Positions 1 through 7,678 of a stretch of DNA of 7,678 nucleotides are shown here, one piece after another (the first letter of the stretch is position 1; the number at the start of each line of letters is the position of its first letter). The stretch lies in contig JAUCGD010000144.1 in the NCBI GenBank assembly GCA_030377945.1, forward strand, positions 1 to 7,678, read 5' to 3'. The position numbers and the translations under genes are program-made. Origin of the DNA: Desulfobacterales bacterium HSG17 (lineage in GTDB: Bacteria; Desulfobacterota; Desulfobacteria; Desulfobacterales; Desulfococcaceae). The notes under the pieces are model-generated. The model did not search any database, had not been told where the DNA came from, and saw only the letters and a program-made list of their open reading frames with translations.

Positions 1-7
1 TAGTCAT
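1..7 (-). CDS. Start of a further gene leaving the window (partial)
   Basis: On the minus strand the left edge reads GAGGTG, five bases (AAAAT), then ATG ACT. This is a good Shine-Dalgarno sequence at a normal distance from an ATG at position 7. Only the first two codons (Met-Thr) are inside the window, so the product cannot be identified. The gene would lie about 155 bases downstream of the last ATPase gene and in the same direction. It could be a distal operon member or be transcribed separately from the AT-rich gap. The ribosome site is seen directly; that it starts a real gene is inference. Confidence 0.45.
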
Positions 8-56
8 ATTTTCACCTCTAAATATTTATATTTTATAATTATTAAGATAGGTTGAA

Positions 57-83
57 GCTATAATACTTTTTAAACTTTGTCAA
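57..83 (-). promoter_or_regulatory. Possible promoter for the gene leaving the left edge
   Basis: On the minus strand there is a perfect TTGACA (83-78), then 15 bases, then TATAGC (62-57). The -35 is consensus, but the -10 matches only four of six bases and the spacing is short. It sits in a very AT-rich 163-base gap where chance matches are common. The gap shows no convincing hairpin plus T-run terminator after the last ATPase gene. The T-rich run near 109-116 has no stem beside it. Confidence 0.3.
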
Positions 84-163
84 GAGTGAGATTTATTTAA
101 GAGAAATTTTTTTTGATTAATAGGTGCGAAACTTGAGTAAATAAGATTGCAGTATTCTCTTTA

Positions 164-958
164 TCAATAATCAGGTTCAGGAATTGATGCCAGCAGCATT
201 TTCGAATAGTGATGATGCGGAGAGCTATACAACTCTTCTGCATCAGCAATTTCACAAATTTTGCCCTTATACATCACAGCAACACGATCACTGATATTCT
301 TTACAACAGCCAGATCATGAGAAATAAACAACATGGTCAGCTTAAATTGCTGTTTCATTTTTTCCAGCAGATTCAGTATTTGAGCCTGAACTGACACATC
401 AAGGCTGGAAACCGGTTCATCACAGATTAAAAGCCTTGGTCTGGTAATAATCGCCCTGGCAATACTGACGCGCTGACACTGACCGCCTGACAATTCATAA
501 GGATACCGGTCATACATCTGTTTCGGGTCAAGCCCCACAGCCTTCATCATTGAACAGGCTCGCTGCCTGCACTCCTGTCGATTTGTTCTGGCGAGAACAC
601 GCAAGGGTTCCTCAATAGTCCTGCCAATTTTACGACCGGGATTCAAAGATGCAACTGCATCCTGAAATATCATCTGAAGTCCGGGCCTGATTTTCCTTAA
701 GCGCTGACTCGTGCAATTTAATAAATCTTCACTATTATAATAAATCCGGCCTGATACCGGTTTTAGAAGTCTGACAATTGCCCGTGCCACACTTGATTTG
801 CCGCATCCTGATTCACCAACCAGTCCAAGGGTTTCACCGGCATTGATTTCAAAACTGACATTGGATACAGCCTGCATCCTGGTTCTGAAACCAATATTAT
901 ATTCAATAACCAGGTTCCTGACAGAAAGCAATGGTTCTTGTTTCAATTGCTTATTCAT
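164..958 (-). CDS. ABC importer ATP-binding protein, DppF/OppF/NikE-like
   Basis: This is the second of two nucleotide-binding subunits that power solute import at the inner face of the cytoplasmic membrane. The 264-residue protein has Walker A GESGCGKS (48-55), Q-loop Q99 in FQD, signature LSGGQ (156-160), Walker B LLICDEP (176-182) with catalytic E181, a SSLD D-loop and switch H214 in ISHD, so it should hydrolyse ATP. It ends at PEPDY soon after the ATPase core and lacks the roughly 60-residue oligopeptide-type C-terminal extension of most DppF/OppF proteins; its length is close to NikE. That hints at, but does not prove, a small or metal-linked substrate. It is the last importer gene, 18 bases after the preceding ATPase gene. 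The start at 958 lies just after a duplicated start codon. A strong AGGGGA site fits the upstream, out-of-frame ATG better (see the repeat at 947-972). Confidence 0.93.
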   Translation of the reverse strand: MNKQLKQEPLLSVRNLVIEYNIGFRTRMQAVSNVSFEINAGETLGLVGESGCGKSSVARAIVRLLKPVSGRIYYNSEDLLNCTSQRLRKIRPGLQMIFQDAVASLNPGRKIGRTIEEPLRVLARTNRQECRQRACSMMKAVGLDPKQMYDRYPYELSGGQCQRVSIARAIITRPRLLICDEPVSSLDVSVQAQILNLLEKMKQQFKLTMLFISHDLAVVKNISDRVAVMYKGKICEIADAEELYSSPHHHYSKMLLASIPEPDY

Positions 959-972
959 CTTGCTTATTCATC
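947..972 (-). repeat. 13-bp tandem duplication doubling the start codon of the DppF-like gene
   Basis: Two perfect adjacent copies of a 13-base unit occupy 947-959 and 960-972; on the minus strand the unit is GATGAATAAGCAA. Each copy contains an ATG followed by AATAAGCAA. The upstream ATG (971-969) lies about ten bases after the GGGG ribosome site and opens a six-codon reading frame, MNKQDE, that stops at TAA. The downstream ATG (958-956) starts the ATPase. Because 13 is not a multiple of three, the two are in different frames, and the small frame's stop lies a few bases past the ATPase start. A shorter, imperfect copy (TTCTTATTC) follows at 974-982. Confidence 0.9.
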
Positions 973-976
973 TTTC

Positions 977-1990
977 TTATTCCCCTTTTATATTTAAGGG
1001 ATACCAGCATGCAGCTCTATGATTGCCGGCTTTACTATTATTGACAGGCTTTAAATCAGGCCTGGTTTTTGTGCATAAATCCCGGGTTTTACAGCATCTT
1101 GGTGCAAAACTGCATCCACGGGGTAAATCTATAAGGTCAGGCGGGTGCCCGTTTATGGTTTGAAGTTTTGTATGCGGAGGATTGGAAAGACGCGGAATAG
1201 CTTCCATCAAGGCACGGGTATATGGCATGTGCATTTGTTTGAAAAGCTCGGATGTGGGAGCATGTTCCACAATTCTGCCTGCATACATTACAGCAGTCTC
1301 ATGGGTACGTCCGGCCACCACATTTAAATCATGGGTTATCAAGATCATGGCCATTTGTTTTTCCTGCTGAAGTCTGGCCAGTAAATCCAGTATTTCAGCC
1401 TGAACAGTCACATCCAGGGCAGTTGTAGGCTCATCTGCAATCAGGAGTTTTGGCTCACAGGCCAGGGCAATTGCAATTGCCACACGCTGGCGCAATCCTC
1501 CTGAAAGCTGATGAGGATATTGTTCAGCTCTGTGTTTCGGCATGGGGATGCCCACAATATCCAGAAGCGAAATTGCGCGCTCCCAGGCCGTTGCTCTGTT
1601 TAATTTAAGATGGCAGCAAAGAACCTCAGCCACCTGCCTGCCGATTTTCATTACCGGGTTAAGGGATGTCATGGGGTCTTGAAAAACAAGGGCGATTTCC
1701 CGTCCCATAATCCTGCGCATCTGTTTGCCTGACATCTTTATCAAATTTTGTCCCTTAAATTCCACAATTGCGTCTGGGGGAACCAGTGCATTGCTCGGCA
1801 AAAGCCCCATCACAGCCCTTGCCAGCATACTTTTGCCGCTGCCGGATTCTCCAACCAATCCGAGAGTTCTGCCCTGTTCCAGGGAAAAGGACACCCTGTT
1901 AACAGCTCTGACCAGACCGTGTTTTGTGGGCAGGCATGCCTGTAAATCTTTAACTTTTAAAAGGGGGAGCATCCTGTTTCCTTTAGTCAT
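977..1990 (-). CDS. ABC importer ATP-binding protein, DppD/OppD-like
   Basis: This is the first of the two ATPase subunits of the importer. The 337-residue protein has Walker A GESGSGKS (47-54), Q-loop Q104 in FQDP, signature LSGGL (162-166), Walker B LLIADEP (182-188) with E187, D-loop TALD and switch H220 in ITHD. The C-terminal tail is the oligopeptide-transporter extension ([17 protein letters not shown], about 283-299), with cysteines at 293, 299, 300, 306 and 328. A similar four-cysteine pattern holds an iron-sulfur cluster in a structurally studied DppD, so one may form here. The start at 1990 overlaps the previous gene's stop in ATGA, which suggests translational coupling. An in-frame ATG at 1972 (residue 7) has AAAGGA upstream and gives the more typical N-terminus [10 protein letters not shown], so it may be the true start. 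Confidence 0.95.
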
Positions 1991-2874
1991 ATCTGAGTCT
2001 TTCCTCGTTCGAAAATATTTCGCAGGCTGTCGCCGATAAGATTAAAGGAAATCACTGTCAGGAACATGATCGCTGCCGGAATCATACTGACATGGGGGGA
2101 TTCATCAAGCACATCCCTGCCCTCGGCAATCATGCGGCCCCAGCTTGGAGTCGGGGCCGGTACACCAAGTCCCAAAAAGCTAAGGGAACCTTCTGCCATT
2201 ATCATAAAGGCAACCACTAACAGACCATATACTGTCACCGGGATAAGCACATTGGGGATAATTTCCCGGACCAGGATAGATAAATTGCCCGCACCTGTCA
2301 GTTTTGCAGCCTGAACAAATTCCAGGCTGCATAAAGCAAGTGTTTTAGCCCTGGCAACCCTGCAAAAAGCCGGAATGGAGAGAAAGCCAAGTGACAAAAT
2401 CATATTTGGGAGACTTGAACCAAGATAGAAGCTGACTGCAAGTAATAGCAGCAGTCCCGGAAATGCCAGGATAATATCCATGACTGCCACAATCAAAGAC
2501 TCCGGAAGACCGCGGTAGAAACCGGCAATACAACCTAAAAAGCCACCTGCTAACAACCCGATCATTGGTGCTATTAACCCGATCGACAAGGAAATGCGTG
2601 CCCCGTAGATTATCCGTGATAAAATATCCCGTCCCATGCTGTCAGTACCCAGCCAATAGATGTAAAAAGATTTTTCCATCTTTTGATATCCCTGCATTAG
2701 TGCTTCCTCACTAATCGTGCCAGGGTTTGCATTCAGGTTGTTCCAGTCCATTTTATCAGGCTCCTGAACTGTCCATAAATCCACGGTTACGGCTGAAATA
2801 ACAAGTAATGCAATCCAGGTTACAGATAGCCAGAAGGCTGGCCCCAGGCCCATGTCAATGGTTCTATTCCCCAT
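1987..2874 (-). CDS. ABC importer permease, DppC/OppC/NikC-like
   Basis: This is one half of the membrane channel. The 295-residue protein has a first membrane segment near residues 14-32, then a periplasmic stretch (about 33-75), then the family hallmark LGTDSMGRDILSRIIYGARI (75-94). Five more hydrophobic segments follow at roughly 95-118, 126-150, 155-175, 206-228 and 262-284. The cytoplasmic coupling loop that docks on the ATPases is around 184-207 (FVQAAKLTGAGNLSIL), followed by SFLGLGVPAPTPSWGRMI (232-249), also typical of the family. Its start overlaps the preceding permease gene by 11 bases, with GGGGAGG just upstream of the ATG, and its stop overlaps the next start in ATGA. It would pair with the DppB-like subunit as a heterodimer. 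Confidence 0.95.
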   Translation of the reverse strand: MGNRTIDMGLGPAFWLSVTWIALLVISAVTVDLWTVQEPDKMDWNNLNANPGTISEEALMQGYQKMEKSFYIYWLGTDSMGRDILSRIIYGARISLSIGLIAPMIGLLAGGFLGCIAGFYRGLPESLIVAVMDIILAFPGLLLLLAVSFYLGSSLPNMILSLGFLSIPAFCRVARAKTLALCSLEFVQAAKLTGAGNLSILVREIIPNVLIPVTVYGLLVVAFMIMAEGSLSFLGLGVPAPTPSWGRMIAEGRDVLDESPHVSMIPAAIMFLTVISFNLIGDSLRNIFERGKTQI

Positions 2875-3829
2875 TTACCTCCCCTGTTCTGATACGTGGA
2901 TCCAGAAGTATATATAAAATATCCACCAATGAATTGATCGTCACATAGCCAATGGTTATCACAAAGATGCACCCCTGGACCATCAGGAAGTCCCGGGCAT
3001 ATATAGCATTGAGCAGCAGTCTTCCGATACCGGGTAATGCAAAGATGGTCTCTACAATCACAGCATCACCAATGCAGCGGCCCATTTGAATGCCAAGTAC
3101 GGTAAACAAAGTCAGTGAGGATGGTCGTAAGGCATGCTGCAAAAGCACCTGCCAGGGTGCCAGTCCCTTGGCCCTGGCCATAAGAATGTAATTCTGCTGC
3201 AAAGTTGTGATCATGTCACTGCGAAGCACCCGCATGAGAACAACCCATTCGATAAGTGCAATACTCAACCCCGGAAGCACAAAAGATTTGATATTGGCCC
3301 ACGGTCCGTCAAAAAAAGGGGTATATCCGGTGGCCGGAAGCCACCGGAGTTGAATGGAAAACAGGTAAATGCTTAAAAGTGCCATCACAAAGCTGGGAAT
3401 TGAAAAGCTGGCAAAGCCGATCCCGCTGATAAAACGGTCAGGTAGTGCATTGCTTTTATAAGCACAGACAATACCGGCAGGCAGTGCAAACAGCAGGGCA
3501 ATGCATTGTGAAATAATGAGCAGTTCCATAGTAACCGGCAGGCGGGAGAGTATGGCATCAAGAACAGATTCGCCGGTCTGATAGGATACACCAAGATTTC
3601 CGCAAACAGCATTTCTCAGCCAGACCAGATACCGGGCAATAATATTGCGGTCAAGCCCCAGATCTTTACGAATGGCTTCAATATCCTCAAGAGTCCCGTC
3701 AAGGCCGCTGATAACATGGGCCACATCACCAGGCAGAACATTAACCATCAGAAAAGTAATAAAGCTAACTGCCAGTATAATGAAAATGAATCGTATTGTT
3801 TTTCTAAGTATAACATGGATAAACTGCAT
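2864..3829 (-). CDS. ABC importer permease, DppB/OppB/NikB-like
   Basis: This is the other half of the membrane channel. The 321-residue protein begins with a membrane segment at about 12-32, followed by FLMVNVLPGD (26-35), typical of DppB proteins. Further hydrophobic segments lie near 100-122, 134-158, 183-203, 240-262 and 284-309. The coupling loop with the EAA-type motif is at about 217-236 (MARAKGLAPWQVLLQHALRP). ETIFALPGIGRLLLNAI (260-276) and the closing DPRIRTGE (310-317) are also standard. It starts eight bases after the methyltransferase-like gene, with only a weak GAAAAGA-type ribosome site, so translation probably depends on ribosomes arriving from that gene. This ties the two genes' expression together. 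Confidence 0.95.
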   Translation of the reverse strand: MQFIHVILRKTIRFIFIILAVSFITFLMVNVLPGDVAHVISGLDGTLEDIEAIRKDLGLDRNIIARYLVWLRNAVCGNLGVSYQTGESVLDAILSRLPVTMELLIISQCIALLFALPAGIVCAYKSNALPDRFISGIGFASFSIPSFVMALLSIYLFSIQLRWLPATGYTPFFDGPWANIKSFVLPGLSIALIEWVVLMRVLRSDMITTLQQNYILMARAKGLAPWQVLLQHALRPSSLTLFTVLGIQMGRCIGDAVIVETIFALPGIGRLLLNAIYARDFLMVQGCIFVITIGYVTINSLVDILYILLDPRIRTGEVNGE

Positions 3830-3837
3830 ATATCTTT

Positions 3838-5169
3838 TCAGGTAAGCGGCAGAGGCGGGAAATGCGATCCTGCCCCTGGCCGGATGGCTATGTCGCCGAC
3901 TTTGTTTTTAAAAGCATCATATCCTGCTGTGCAAAGCGCATCCACAGCTTGGTCAACATATCCCTCATCAATTATTTGCTGCCACAATGTACAATGTAAC
4001 TTCCTTTGTTCTGCCGGGGACTTTTGTGCTTTGGGGCCAATCAGGAATCCGTTTTCGCCCCGGCCGCAGATGTCATGCTGTTCAAGCAGAAAGTCAACAC
4101 GGCTGAAAAATTTCTGCCAAAAGGCTTTATTGCTGCGTATGCTGCCTGTCAGTTCAGCCAGAAGATCTGCTTCCGGATCATCCTCATGGATGGTGAACCA
4201 GGCCACCACACTTAAGGGCCGAAGCACATCCGGGCTGAACGCAAACTCCTCAGGATGCAGGCGCCTGCCTTCTTTTCTGTAAACAATGTAGCGCCTGTAC
4301 GGCCCTGAAGCATGATTGGTTCCTGCTAATAAAATCCCCCCTTGATCCAATATGCTTCCGGCCTGGGTCATCATGCGAATCCTGGTTTTGGGATCAAAAT
4401 ATAAAAGAAGGTTCATACATCTCAATACATTGGCGGGCGGAAGCCGGCACTGGCCTAACTCAGTTTCAAGAAAAGTAAGCTGTTCGGTTTCGTATTCCTT
4501 TATTAGATTTTGTTTGAGTTTGAAGCCCCCGGTTTCAACTGAAGAGGTTTTGGTATCTGCTGTTGCTGTCAGCATGGGCTGAAGTTTGACAAATGCTGCT
4601 TTGAATCGTTTCCTGGTGGATACATGATCTTTATAAAATGCTAAGATATCCGGTGCGTCTGACCGGGGCTGCATGTAATACAGGGTGTGATCCCGTCCAA
4701 AACATGCATAATGGCCGTCCTGATCAATTACCAGGTATGGGGCAAAGTTCCGGTCAATCCCGAACACTTTCCAGTCCGGGAACCTGTGCGTTGTCTCAAC
4801 CGTTGTAACCGGCGGGAATCCGCATCCGACATCAACAAAAATGCCCTGTCTGTTTTTGGGAACAGATATGCTCTTTTCGACATACGCATCGAATATTTCA
4901 TGTCGCCCCGGATTTGTGAGCGGAGGAATAGTGCCGCCCAGGGAACCTGGCAATATATTGGGAACCACGGTTGACAGCCCCCATATAAGCCAGGGATTGA
5001 AATCAGTGGCAGGCTGACCTGCTTTGCGCATGAGACTGAGCATTCGCAGGATAAAATTTTGTGTTTCGTTTCCTAGTGAAGACAAGTCAACTTCCTGAGC
5101 CAGTTCATGAGGCAGATCTTTTCCCAAATATTCAAGCACATATGAGTTAAAAGTTTTTATCTGTGCCAT
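3838..5169 (-). CDS. Class I SAM-dependent methyltransferase-like protein with CheR-like C-terminal core motifs
   Basis: This 443-residue protein is predicted soluble, with no signal peptide or clear membrane segment. SAM-binding signs are motif I, FVDVGCGFPP (111-120), and the acidic ribose-binding strand FGIDRN (136-141). A later stretch, NVLRCMNLLLYFD (247-259) followed by GGILLAGTNH (277-286), closely resembles the CheR pattern of an RNVLIYF-like strand then LKPGG and LFLG. No receptor-binding or chemotaxis domain is seen. An N-terminal helical part (1-100) and a C-terminal region (about 300-443) are not recognised. The gene lies between the binding-protein and permease genes, so a role in modifying the imported solute, or in making a ligand for import, is the natural inference. 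The reaction is unknown; aminoalkyl transfer, as in nicotianamine-type synthases, is an alternative to methyl transfer. ATG at 5169 is the only well-placed start. Confidence 0.8.
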   Translation of the reverse strand: MAQIKTFNSYVLEYLGKDLPHELAQEVDLSSLGNETQNFILRMLSLMRKAGQPATDFNPWLIWGLSTVVPNILPGSLGGTIPPLTNPGRHEIFDAYVEKSISVPKNRQGIFVDVGCGFPPVTTVETTHRFPDWKVFGIDRNFAPYLVIDQDGHYACFGRDHTLYYMQPRSDAPDILAFYKDHVSTRKRFKAAFVKLQPMLTATADTKTSSVETGGFKLKQNLIKEYETEQLTFLETELGQCRLPPANVLRCMNLLLYFDPKTRIRMMTQAGSILDQGGILLAGTNHASGPYRRYIVYRKEGRRLHPEEFAFSPDVLRPLSVVAWFTIHEDDPEADLLAELTGSIRSNKAFWQKFFSRVDFLLEQHDICGRGENGFLIGPKAQKSPAEQRKLHCTLWQQIIDEGYVDQAVDALCTAGYDAFKNKVGDIAIRPGAGSHFPPLPLT

Positions 5170-5175
5170 AATATT

Positions 5176-5214
5176 TCAAATCCTGTTTTTATCAAATCCT
5201 GTTATTATCAAATA
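5176..5214 (-). repeat. 16-bp tandem repeat carrying a duplicated ribosome binding site
   Basis: Two adjacent 16-base units (5176-5191 and 5192-5207) differ at one base, and a third partial unit (5208-5213) follows. On the minus strand each full unit contains ACAGGAT, so two AGGA ribosome sites lie upstream of the methyltransferase-like ATG. The near one (5184-5181) is 11 bases from the ATG and the far one (5200-5197) is 27 bases away. The near one is the probable working site, slightly further out than ideal. Copy number here could change the leader structure and the expression of the downstream genes. Confidence 0.85.
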
Positions 5215-5237
5215 TGGGGAACAAAAGTATGATTTAA

Positions 5238-5267
5238 GAAATCCGATTTTCTAAAAAATCGGATTTC
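5238..5267 (-). terminator. Intercistronic hairpin between binding-protein and methyltransferase genes
   Basis: A perfect 13-bp stem (5238-5250 with 5255-5267) encloses a four-base loop. It begins 21 bases after the binding-protein stop codon. On the minus strand it is followed by TTAAATCATACTTTT, not a clean T-run, so it is a poor full terminator. It more likely acts as a partial terminator or as a 3'-end block against RNA decay. Such hairpins after binding-protein genes are well known to keep binding protein in excess over the membrane subunits. The hairpin is seen directly; the role is inference. Confidence 0.6.
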
Positions 5268-5287
5268 CGGGTTGTTTTTATAATTTC

Positions 5288-6814
5288 TTATTTCAAATCC
5301 GAATAAAAAAACGGAATGCCCTGGATAATATGCTGGGGCCTGTCCAGTTTGGGGGCACCTATGAAATGATACCGGCGTCCGCCCAGGAACATGGTAACTG
5401 CGTCATTGTTGATTTTTGCTGCAATGCGGCAAAGAAGCTTTTTCCTGGTCTCAGGATTGGTTTCCATGCGCTGTTTTTCCAGGAAATCATCTATTTCCAG
5501 ATCCGCATATTTAGCAAAATTGGCCTTGCTTTCAGAGTGATATTCCTTAAACAATGAGGGACCCTGGTCCGGTGCACTGGGGATTCTCCCGCTGCCCATC
5601 TGATAATTTCCTTTGATGATTTTCCTGATAAGTGCGCCCATATCCAGGGGAGTAAGGATAAGCTCAATACCGGCTTCCTTCATCAATTGCTGCATAATCT
5701 GCCCAAGCTCCTGCCCTCTTGGTGTCTGGGTGTGGATATATTCAATTTTTACAGGTTTGCCGTATTGGGCAAGAAGCTTTTTTGCAGCCTGGGGGTCATG
5801 CTCATTATAGGCTGTATTATTACAGTCCAGGGTGCTGCCAAAGATATGTTCTATCTTGGGGATTGTACCTTTCTTGCTCACGGAAATATATTTGGCCTGA
5901 TCCCAGGCAAGGAGGACTGCTTTTCTAACGCGCACATCATCCAGGGGCGGGGATTTATGGTTCATTCGGATGATATCTGCCCCATTATCCAGAGCTGAAA
6001 ATACATTTAAGTCTGCATCTTTTTCAGCCTGTCGAATATGGATGCCGCGATCCGTATAAATTAAATCGGTTTCACCTGCTTTCAGGGATGTGTAACGGGT
6101 CTGATGGTCGCTTATGATTCGGAATTTAATTCGGTCTGCAATGGGAGCAATGGACTTCCAGTAGTTGGGATTTTTTTCAACACTGATATAATCCGAATGT
6201 TTCCATTTCACAAACTGGAAAGGGCCTGTTCCCACAGGTGCGCTGTTGCCTGTCTCCTGTTTCATTGCCGCAGGCGAGGGAATCAGTGCTATACCTCGGA
6301 TCCATGAAATGACACCTTTAAACGCGGGCCAGGGATGTTTCAGATTAAAGCGAACCGTGTGGGCATCTATTTTTTCCACAGACTTGACAGATGTGATGTA
6401 AGCACGCCCCCTGAACTTGATTTTCGGATCAAGCATCCGGCTCCAGTGAGCTGTGACAGCATCTGCGGTAAAAGGTGTACCGTCATGAAAAAGCACGCCC
6501 TTGCGGAGTGCCACAGTCCAGACTTTTCCATCAGCCGAAGAAGTGGCCGAAAGCCCCAGGGCAGGAACAAGTTCACCTTTTTCATCCATATAGAACAAAG
6601 GCTCCAGTACAGTGTTGACAACAATTGCGGTAGATATGGTAAAACCGCCGAACTTGATTATGTCAAAACCGTGAAAGGTCTCAATACCGACTTTCAATTC
6701 TTCTCTGGGCGGCTGTGCAAAAGACACAGCGCTCCAGCAAACTGCCGACAAAACAATCAGCATTAAACCCATAAAACACAAGCGAAAACGATTCCCAATA
6801 AAATGATGTAACAT
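5288..6814 (-). CDS. ABC importer periplasmic solute-binding protein, SBP family 5 (DppA/OppA/NikA type)
   Basis: This is the periplasmic receptor that captures the solute and delivers it to the permeases. The 508-residue protein has a Sec signal peptide: basic start, hydrophobic core (about 12-30) and likely cleavage after SFA (31-33). No proper lipobox is present, so it should be free in the periplasm. Family 5 signs are NTVLEPLFYMDEKGELVPAL (67-86), LRKGVLFHDGTPFTADAV (103-120), PVGTGPFQFVKW (193-204), NPNYWK (215-220) and DDVRVRKAVLLAWD (292-305). The start is set at 6814 because GGAGGG lies seven bases before this ATG. An upstream in-frame ATG at 6829 lacks a ribosome site and would itself run through GGAGGG. 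It is the first importer gene after the regulator. The solute cannot be read from the sequence. Confidence 0.94.
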   Translation of the reverse strand: MLHHFIGNRFRLCFMGLMLIVLSAVCWSAVSFAQPPREELKVGIETFHGFDIIKFGGFTISTAIVVNTVLEPLFYMDEKGELVPALGLSATSSADGKVWTVALRKGVLFHDGTPFTADAVTAHWSRMLDPKIKFRGRAYITSVKSVEKIDAHTVRFNLKHPWPAFKGVISWIRGIALIPSPAAMKQETGNSAPVGTGPFQFVKWKHSDYISVEKNPNYWKSIAPIADRIKFRIISDHQTRYTSLKAGETDLIYTDRGIHIRQAEKDADLNVFSALDNGADIIRMNHKSPPLDDVRVRKAVLLAWDQAKYISVSKKGTIPKIEHIFGSTLDCNNTAYNEHDPQAAKKLLAQYGKPVKIEYIHTQTPRGQELGQIMQQLMKEAGIELILTPLDMGALIRKIIKGNYQMGSGRIPSAPDQGPSLFKEYHSESKANFAKYADLEIDDFLEKQRMETNPETRKKLLCRIAAKINNDAVTMFLGGRRYHFIGAPKLDRPQHIIQGIPFFYSDLK

Positions 6815-6821
6815 ACTCGGA

Positions 6822-6827
6822 CCCTCC
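6822..6827 (-). promoter_or_regulatory. Ribosome binding site that fixes the binding-protein start
   Basis: On the minus strand GGAGGG (6827-6822) is followed by the seven bases TCCGAGT and then ATG at 6814. The longer reading frame's ATG at 6829 overlaps this site and is preceded only by AT-rich TTAATTA, so the shorter protein is preferred. Confidence 0.8.
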
Positions 6828-6867
6828 ATTAATTAATGATACGTTAAATTATCCTATATGATTGCCC

Positions 6868-6894
6868 TTGTTCCCAGGCTCTGCCTTGTAACGA
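6868..6894. repeat. Decayed GTTCCCA-type palindromic repeat
   Basis: The + strand reads GTTCCCAGGC, TCT, then GCCTTGTAAC. This is a 10-bp palindrome (6870-6879 with 6883-6892) with two mismatches, extended by two more pairs (one T-G). It resembles the dispersed palindromes of the form GTTCCCA...TGGGAAC found between genes in many bacteria, here apparently eroded in one arm. It begins three bases after the regulator's stop codon. It could still fold in RNA and separate the regulator message from the importer message, but no T-run follows on the minus strand. Confidence 0.5.
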
Positions 6895-6896
6895 GT

Positions 6897-7556
6897 TCAA
6901 GTTTTTTTGCTCAATCCTGTTAACGACATGAAACTTATCTTTTTCCTAAGCTCCGGGGTAAGGTTGGCCGATGCTTTTATTACTTCCTCCTCCCTCTCGG
7001 AAAAGCCTTTGCAGATAATTTCGCTGCACAGGGACATCATCTGTTTGACAACATCTTCATTTGACCAGGCGGGTGCGGTGCCTGAACTGAGCGCAGTTGC
7101 GATACCATGACTCAACTGGGCCCGTACGATTCTGATCCAGCCCACAAGCTCGGCATTCATGCCCTTAAAAGCCGGGTAATCTTCTCCTAACTCCTTATAT
7201 ACAGATAACCAGAAAGCGTATCTGCGCTTATGAACATCCTCGGGTTTTCCATAGTTCATACAATTAAAGAGCAGACCATGATCCTTTGCAAAAAATATGT
7301 AACCGATTGCATGGTCAACCCAGGGGGCTCCGGTATAAGTTTTCAAGGCATATTCTGTAAGAATTTCCCAGGCCCGATCAAGGATCGCTTCTTTTAACTC
7401 ATCCATTGTGGCAAAATGGGAAAAAATAGGCATGGTAGATGCACCAAGTTTTTTTGCTACTAATTTTGGCGTTATACCTTCCCACCCAAACTCTTTTAAC
7501 TGCTCAAGCCCGGCTTCAATTACAGTTTCTCTGGTATATTTGGTTTTTTTAGGCAT
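6897..7556 (-). CDS. TetR/AcrR-family transcriptional regulator
   Basis: This is a 219-residue DNA-binding regulator. The N-terminus is a standard TetR fold: helix 1 with RETVIEAGLEQLKEFGWEGIT (9-29), then the helix-turn-helix PKLVAKKLGASTMPIFSHFATMDEL (30-54). The usual recognition-helix pattern (...LYYHF) appears as IFSHF (44-48). The C-terminal half (about 65-219), expected to bind a ligand and dimerise, shows no recognisable subfamily motif; it has cysteines at 99, 177 and 182. The protein is encoded upstream of and in the same direction as the importer, 82 bases from the binding-protein start, and directly behind a 62-bp palindrome. Autoregulation and control of the importer operon are therefore likely. 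The ribosome site AGGA is weak and 13 bases from the ATG, which suggests low expression. Confidence 0.9.
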   Translation of the reverse strand: MPKKTKYTRETVIEAGLEQLKEFGWEGITPKLVAKKLGASTMPIFSHFATMDELKEAILDRAWEILTEYALKTYTGAPWVDHAIGYIFFAKDHGLLFNCMNYGKPEDVHKRRYAFWLSVYKELGEDYPAFKGMNAELVGWIRIVRAQLSHGIATALSSGTAPAWSNEDVVKQMMSLCSEIICKGFSEREEEVIKASANLTPELRKKISFMSLTGLSKKT

Positions 7557-7571
7557 TGTATTCTGTTAATC

Positions 7572-7601
7572 CTGACAATAAAATAGTTATAGTTATATAA
7601 C
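7572..7601 (+). promoter_or_regulatory. Possible divergent promoter facing out of the right edge
   Basis: On the + strand CTGACA (7572-7577) is followed by 18 bases and TATAAC (7596-7601), each matching five of six consensus bases. It is the mirror image of the minus-strand promoter, as the palindrome dictates. It would drive a gene to the right of the window, the usual divergent arrangement for TetR regulators. No start codon with a ribosome site is visible before the edge. The symmetry alone could produce this match. Confidence 0.4.
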
Positions 7602-7634
7602 GATTGATATATAACTATAACTATTTTATTGTCA
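7573..7634. promoter_or_regulatory. Large perfect inverted repeat, probable TetR operator
   Basis: Two 27-base arms (7573-7599 and 7608-7634) are exact reverse complements around an eight-base centre. Each arm holds a hexamer direct repeat: AGTTAT twice at 7585-7596, mirrored as ATAACT twice at 7611-7622. The palindrome ends 17 bases before the regulator's ATG and contains promoter-like sequences on both strands. TetR-family dimers bind palindromes of about 15-30 bp, so this may hold two dimer sites, one per arm, or one extended site. If read through from outside, the RNA would form a very long AT-rich hairpin. Confidence 0.75.
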
Positions 7635-7635
7635 A
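7607..7635 (-). promoter_or_regulatory. Probable promoter for the regulator and importer operon
   Basis: On the minus strand a perfect TTGACA (7635-7630) is followed by 16 bases and TATATA (7613-7608); 18-base spacing gives TATATC. Transcription would start near 7600, inside the palindrome centre, so the mRNA leader would hold only one arm of the repeat and would not form the full hairpin. A repressor on the palindrome would cover the whole promoter. No better promoter is seen between the regulator and the binding-protein gene, so the whole operon may start here. Confidence 0.6.
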
Positions 7636-7678
7636 GCTTTTTTGTTAGTACACCGTTTCACAAGTTTGTACACAGTTG

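Follow-up and report, generated by a model that had tools for sequence, protein, structure and literature searches.

A Dpp/Opp/Nik-type ABC importer clade of Desulfobacterales whose operons nearly always carry one of two unrelated SAM-dependent methyltransferases

An ABC importer of the Dpp/Opp/Nik class usually receives its name on the basis of the transporter alone, with a guess at the ligand. In the staphylopine and pseudopaline (Cnt) systems, a SAM-using enzyme is encoded together with an importer of this class. The same holds for a 7,678-nt stretch of DNA of Desulfobacterales bacterium HSG17 (contig JAUCGD010000144.1, positions 1 to 7,678, termed the window), in which a SAM-dependent methyltransferase gene (MT) lies within an importer operon; unlike the Cnt enzymes, MT does not belong to the nicotianamine synthase (NAS) family and no NAS gene lies near the importer in 25 related genomes. 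In those parts of the literature on similar systems, carboxyl methyltransferases and opine metallophores that were accessible to us, we found no description of an importer module partnered with a methyltransferase.

All seven genes of the window are on the minus strand. A TetR-family regulator (6897-7556) heads the array and is followed by a family 5 solute-binding protein (SBP, SBP_bac_5; 5288-6829), the 443-residue MT (3838-5169), permease B (permB, Opp/Dpp/Nik type; 2864-3829), permease C (permC; 1987-2874) and two ATPases, one of the OppD/DppD type (977-1990) and one of the OppF/DppF type (164-958). Each protein matched its expected Pfam family, TetR_N alone scoring just below its cut-off (21.7 against 24 bits), and the permeases and ATPases were assigned with both Pfam and NCBIfam. 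SBP_bac_5, two BPD_transp_1 permeases and two OppD/F-type ATPases in their usual order make this a Dpp/Opp/Nik-type ABC importer, which differs from its described counterparts by the additional SAM methyltransferase and the heading TetR gene. The SBP and permB were nearest to nickel-importer families in NCBIfam, though well below the NikABCDE cut-offs (SBP 156.8 against 393 for NikA, permB 238.7 against 447 for NikB, permC 191.8 against 358.45 for NikC), and all transporter parts fell below the curated NCBIfam cut-offs among the models listed, which for the ATPases were the best 25. No plasmid matched the window at E ≤ 1e-5 and no Rfam family reached its gathering score within it.

A preliminary description of this DNA had placed MT between the SBP gene and the first permease gene as an integral member of the operon. 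The coordinates agree with the placement: MT ends 8 nt ahead of permB, permB overlaps permC, and permC overlaps the following ATPase gene. The text upstream of permB reads cttacctgaaaagatatATG, where a ribosome site was read by eye only. The 118 nt between SBP and MT contain a strong hairpin, and MT is therefore the first gene of a tight MT-B-C-D-F block and not tightly joined to SBP. Operon membership is strengthened by the recurrence of the association in relatives. In two other loci, L006 and L007, the same gap measures just 7 and 6 nt. The hairpin (5238-5267, minus strand; 14 bp, -16.4 kcal/mol, z -4.85) is not followed by a T run on the coding strand. Hairpins behind SBP genes are a common device by which the SBP is expressed more strongly than the rest, and this one could possibly stabilize the SBP mRNA or lower downstream expression.

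Just upstream of TetR, two 32-nt arms, 94% complementary and 8 nt apart, form an inverted repeat (7568-7639) that overlaps a TTGACA -35-like hexamer and is a candidate TetR operator/promoter. A loose rule, run without a shuffled control and under which short palindromes are expected by chance, was applied to 17 sequences upstream of TetR, that of the window included, and gave palindromes in 10 of them (the window, L015, L017, L019, L059, L086, L088, L090, L095 and L098). Their sequences differ between loci, and the distance to TetR is about 100 nt in L019 and 140 nt in L088. The rule returned none in the other seven stretches (L003, L007, L011, L091, L096, L097 and L099); GTTAC/GTAAC-like dyads could be seen by eye in L003, L096 and L097.

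MT is a class I SAM-dependent methyltransferase with a Rossmann-like fold, a glycine-rich motif I and an acidic motif II. Its predicted structure is confident (mean pLDDT 89) and adds a helical N-terminal part (residues ~1-80) and a mostly helical C-terminal part (~312-443). At E ≤ 0.001, 159 proteins match it, the window's own included, which together with the confident fold rules out a chance open reading frame. The normal SAM site and CheR-like strand noted from the sequence were confirmed, since all four quoted motifs (VDVGCGFPP, GIDRN, NVLRCMNLLLYFD and GGILLAGTNH) are present in the translation, as was the lack of a chemotaxis context, no chemotaxis gene being found in the window. When MT was profiled against CheR, NAS-like and other SAM families, as had been proposed, CheR (PF01739) came nearest, yet below its Pfam cut-off (20.9 against 27 bits). 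CheR was matched by 24 of 27 MT family rows at E ≤ 0.01 (best 7.9e-9), and many relatives among the matches listed carry a precomputed PF01739 tag, on which grounds the family could represent a distant offshoot of the CheR-like enzymes. MT shares with CheR the class I fold and a common stretch (RCMNLLLYF in MT, CRNVMIYF in CheR) but differs by its sub-threshold score and its large extra terminal parts; profile alignment confined the likeness to residues 229-286 and could not align the N-terminal half. A conserved T-x3-R at residues 85-89 resembles the catalytic arginine region of CheR, and the VIA alignment start points are compatible with this. As profile alignment of this half failed, we make no claim for T-x3-R as that region. 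The window's MT was not accepted as a CheR member.

In structure comparison, sugar and other small-molecule methyltransferases tied with CheR; the comparison covered mainly MT residues ~80-303, and absences from the fold library prove nothing. NAS/CntL (PF03059) gave no match to the window's MT at E ≤ 1 and was absent from the families listed for the 27 family rows at E ≤ 0.01. Neither LCM nor TIGR00027 matched it (Pfam E ≤ 1, NCBIfam E ≤ 0.1), nor did any housekeeping methyltransferase family with a known, unrelated substrate, a match that the preliminary description had named as fatal to its proposal.

A single-sequence MT search of genome contigs returned no relative. An alignment-based search of one-per-species genomes gave 63 loci in several phyla, many of them on short contigs where a missing importer can simply reflect a contig end. 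Importer genes were found near MT in 14 of the 22 loci with closer relatives (L001-L020, L023 and L059; L002 and L003 belong to a single cluster) and in none of the 41 others, several of which lie on short contigs. MT is present in 21 of 389 genomes of the order; in G135 it is a weak fragment containing stops, and in a few more genomes contig ends cut it off. The link to the importer recurs in Desulfobacterales and Desulfogranum, and hence the other finding that would have counted against the original idea, a lack of the gene from the operon in all relatives, does not hold. A search for the same gene order retrieved SBP-MT-permB in L006, L007, L011 and L013 besides the window; in L098 this order is interrupted by ISL3-type and DDE_Tnp_1 transposase genes, one on either side of MT inside the importer operon. 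SBP-MT reaches the contig end in L008 and L059, and MT-permB begins the contig in L023. The order B-C-D-F-SBP-MT was observed in L009 and L101, and MT lies behind the last ATPase in L014, L015, L017, L019 and L099; L019 belongs to Desulfospira joergensenii. Desulfococcaceae bacterium HSG9 has two MT copies (L002, L003), which are separated by ~14 kb and lie around a single importer cluster; next to one copy there are broken pieces of an additional SBP gene. L006 (329-5641) and L007 carry a second, GsiB-like importer (479.8 bits against a cut-off of 594 in L006), divergent from TetR, and the two importers have the TetR region in common; the GsiB-like importer is accompanied in both loci by a gamma-glutamyl hydrolase-like peptidase C26 gene.

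With an alignment of ten MT-linked SBPs as query, the 389 order genomes yielded a sharply bounded SBP clade, which includes the window's protein and comprises 24 intact loci and one fragment in 23 genomes. Relaxing the limit from 1e-120 to 1e-90 added nothing to the count, and in the rest of the phylum only two of 395 sampled genomes, both already known, contained the clade. Eleven of the 24 loci carry MT (including G008, whose SBP and MT stand at the ends of two contigs and were joined across the break), ten carry an LCM-type gene (PF04072), one carries both (L009) and two neither (L094, L095), so that a SAM methyltransferase of at least one of these two unrelated families is present in 22 of 24. 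L091 and L092 are nearly identical to each other. MT occurs in 14 of 23 clade genomes, compared with 21 of all 389 (Fisher p 5e-15, biased by the MT-linked query and ignoring relatedness). LCM, which had not been selected for, is found in 10 of the 12 clade loci without an adjoining MT, between TetR and SBP in eight (L086, L088-L092, L096 and L097) and directly after SBP, in the slot of MT, in L087 and L093; L097 belongs to Desulfosarcina widdelii. Six of the ten were identified by Pfam PF04072, and L087, L089, L091 and L092 by tblastn and a PF04072 genome search; of the four scanned with NCBIfam, those of three of these loci and of L009 exceeded the TIGR00027 cut-off. LCM thus has the same role beside the same importer clade in sister loci, but is absent from the window and unrelated to MT at the profile level (hhalign probability 0.6% between MT and the importer-linked LCM profiles, no mutual match). 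The import-and-modify idea of the preliminary description is strengthened by this recurrence and by an unrelated family filling the same role. Neither MT nor the importer strictly needs the other, since seven of the 21 MT-bearing genomes have no match of the SBP clade (among them G173, in which a contig begins with MT next to permB and permC, and the G135 fragment) and MT lies far from an LCM-type importer in G003 and G281.

Could both enzymes merely hitch-hike, by chance or as in a selfish operon, in a mobile importer cluster with which they share no function? MT does change position, standing behind SBP in some loci and behind the last ATPase in others, and transposases flank it in L098. Against this, we compared clade and non-clade SBPs in 11 genomes that have an LCM elsewhere than at the importer (147 rows, of which 14 represent 12 clade loci; G126 was left out). 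Either enzyme lies within 5 kb of 9 of the 12 clade loci, counted strictly on the same contig so that the split G008 does not score as linked, and of none of 133 other SBPs (p 3.6e-12, relatedness ignored, table numbers tallied by eye, and the MT part biased by a clade defined with MT-linked SBPs). For LCM alone, the proportions are four of six MT-free clade loci and 0 of 133 (p 1e-6). That 22 of the 24 clade loci have kept a methyltransferase through such reshuffling speaks for a joint role of enzyme and importer. LCM occupies 29 places in 18 of 25 related genomes. An LCM tree was built from 10 of the 11 linked rows, without the near copy L092, and from 13 of 18 unlinked ones; strong support was obtained for 8 of its 20 inner branches, and the LCM of L009 is unplaced. 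On it, linked and unlinked sequences required two label changes, a number that none of 500 shuffles matched; judged from this tree, the importer-linked LCMs mostly form lineages apart from these 13 and are no random draw. We therefore regard hitch-hiking as improbable, the least likely of the explanations considered. An LCM ~7 kb from a non-clade SBP in G011 was rejected as importer-linked, being a separate unit, and was not counted; another in G002 lies ~6.7 kb from a non-clade SBP, past the 5-kb limit.

MT and LCM types interleave on a tree of the concatenated B/C/D/F transporter core (26 of 30 loci, each with at least two of the four core genes), where the window pairs with L096 and L097 (100/100), L098 with L090-L092 (100/100) and L003 with L089 (99/97). 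Five label changes are required on this tree and two on the SBP tree (28 of 30 loci). Both trees have long rows (the window and L087) and inner branches of weak support; within these limits, the type of enzyme goes with the ligand binder more closely than with the channel. Ten of the 16 MT-bearing rows fall on one side of the SBP tree and the other six, including the window, on the side containing LCM. A specific co-divergence of MT with SBP was not seen by mirror distances, the correlation in 13 MT-type loci being higher for MT-permB (r 0.90) than for MT-SBP (r 0.78).

The preliminary description had also suggested, by analogy with staphylopine, that the enzyme might help to make a chelator. 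A metallophore synthase role for MT was not supported. Besides the lack of NAS resemblance, NAS was detected in 3 of 25 related genomes and in none near the importer; tandem NAS-like gene pairs lie far from it at G011:C3:51747-53360, G358:C1:3835275-3836771 and G281:C1:3476232-3477670. Staphylopine-type opine dehydrogenase (PF10100) had no match among the seven window proteins or in the 25 genomes, where no control genome matched either. A broader form of this idea, in which the product of the methyltransferase is a signal or chelator that is secreted and then recovered by the importer, would fit an importer of the Cnt/Nik class whose SBP and permB come nearest to nickel families. It would also fit the MFS transporter, weakly like multidrug efflux proteins, between SBP and permB in the LCM-type locus L090, and the MFS gene preceding MT in four Bacteroidota loci (L037 by Pfam; L042, L047 and L049 by clustering). 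However, among the loci whose neighbors were compared, the importer operon has no recurring exporter or other synthase and, with the NAS and dehydrogenase results, the latter uncontrolled, we consider such recycling unlikely. L088 has a metallo-beta-lactamase-fold protein between SBP and permB.

Outside the close relatives, MT is found in mostly small-molecule settings. Genes for an FAD monooxygenase, an FMN dehydrogenase, a P450 and MT are clustered in L026 (215-5584), L028 (5867-11287) and L033 (5712-11221), in one Ardenticatenaceae genome and two Aquimarina genomes, and probably form a biosynthetic cluster that uses the same MT family. A RidA-type gene lies directly upstream of MT, with no importer, in L001 (1654-3469, by Pfam) and in L004 and L020 (by clustering). 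These surroundings bear on whether the methyltransferase could instead modify a protein of the system, namely TetR, SBP or the transporter. CheR methylates receptors and LCMT1 methylates a phosphatase; both enzyme families thus include protein carboxyl methyltransferases, and CheR is the closest profile to MT. On the other hand, the CheR likeness covers residues 229-286 only, small-molecule enzymes tie with CheR in structure, and none of the 41 distant loci has this transporter beside MT, some having metabolic enzymes there. A protein target accordingly appears to us quite unlikely, a little more so than recycling.

The alternation of two unrelated enzyme families beside one importer family of sulfate-reducing bacteria suggests that the cell methylates whatever the importer brings in, and an inducible, TetR-autoregulated import-and-methylate module is our best reading, held with moderate confidence. 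The SBP, judging from its family, would capture a small organic ligand, peptide- or amino-acid-like, which the B/C/D/F transporter would bring in; the co-encoded methyltransferase would then methylate the ligand or its first cytoplasmic product and so trap, detoxify or activate it. TetR would repress the operon by binding the 7568-7639 dyad until released by ligand or product. It is to be noted that adjacent genes can travel together without a common substrate and that two of the 24 clade loci (L094, L095) have no methyltransferase. CheR and LCM are both classically carboxyl O-methyltransferases, and the methyl acceptor might therefore be a carboxylate; ester capping of a carboxylate ligand is our boldest guess. 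In its full form, the clade would esterify the carboxylate of the arriving ligand under TetR control with interchangeable CheR-like or LCM-like enzymes, methylation trapping or disarming the ligand and setting the inducer level, a proposal that we put forward as doubtful, if somewhat less so than recycling.

The importer clade is best filed as a variant of the Dpp/Opp/Nik kind marked by its partnership with a methyltransferase. This association provides a first functional handle on a multi-phylum MT family that is filed loosely in databases as CheR or hypothetical. A modifying enzyme that is kept with an importer and swapped between unrelated families suggests the fate of the ligand and gives an assay by which that ligand could be found; if the carboxylate-capping reading were true, the clade would represent a new kind of vectorial uptake.
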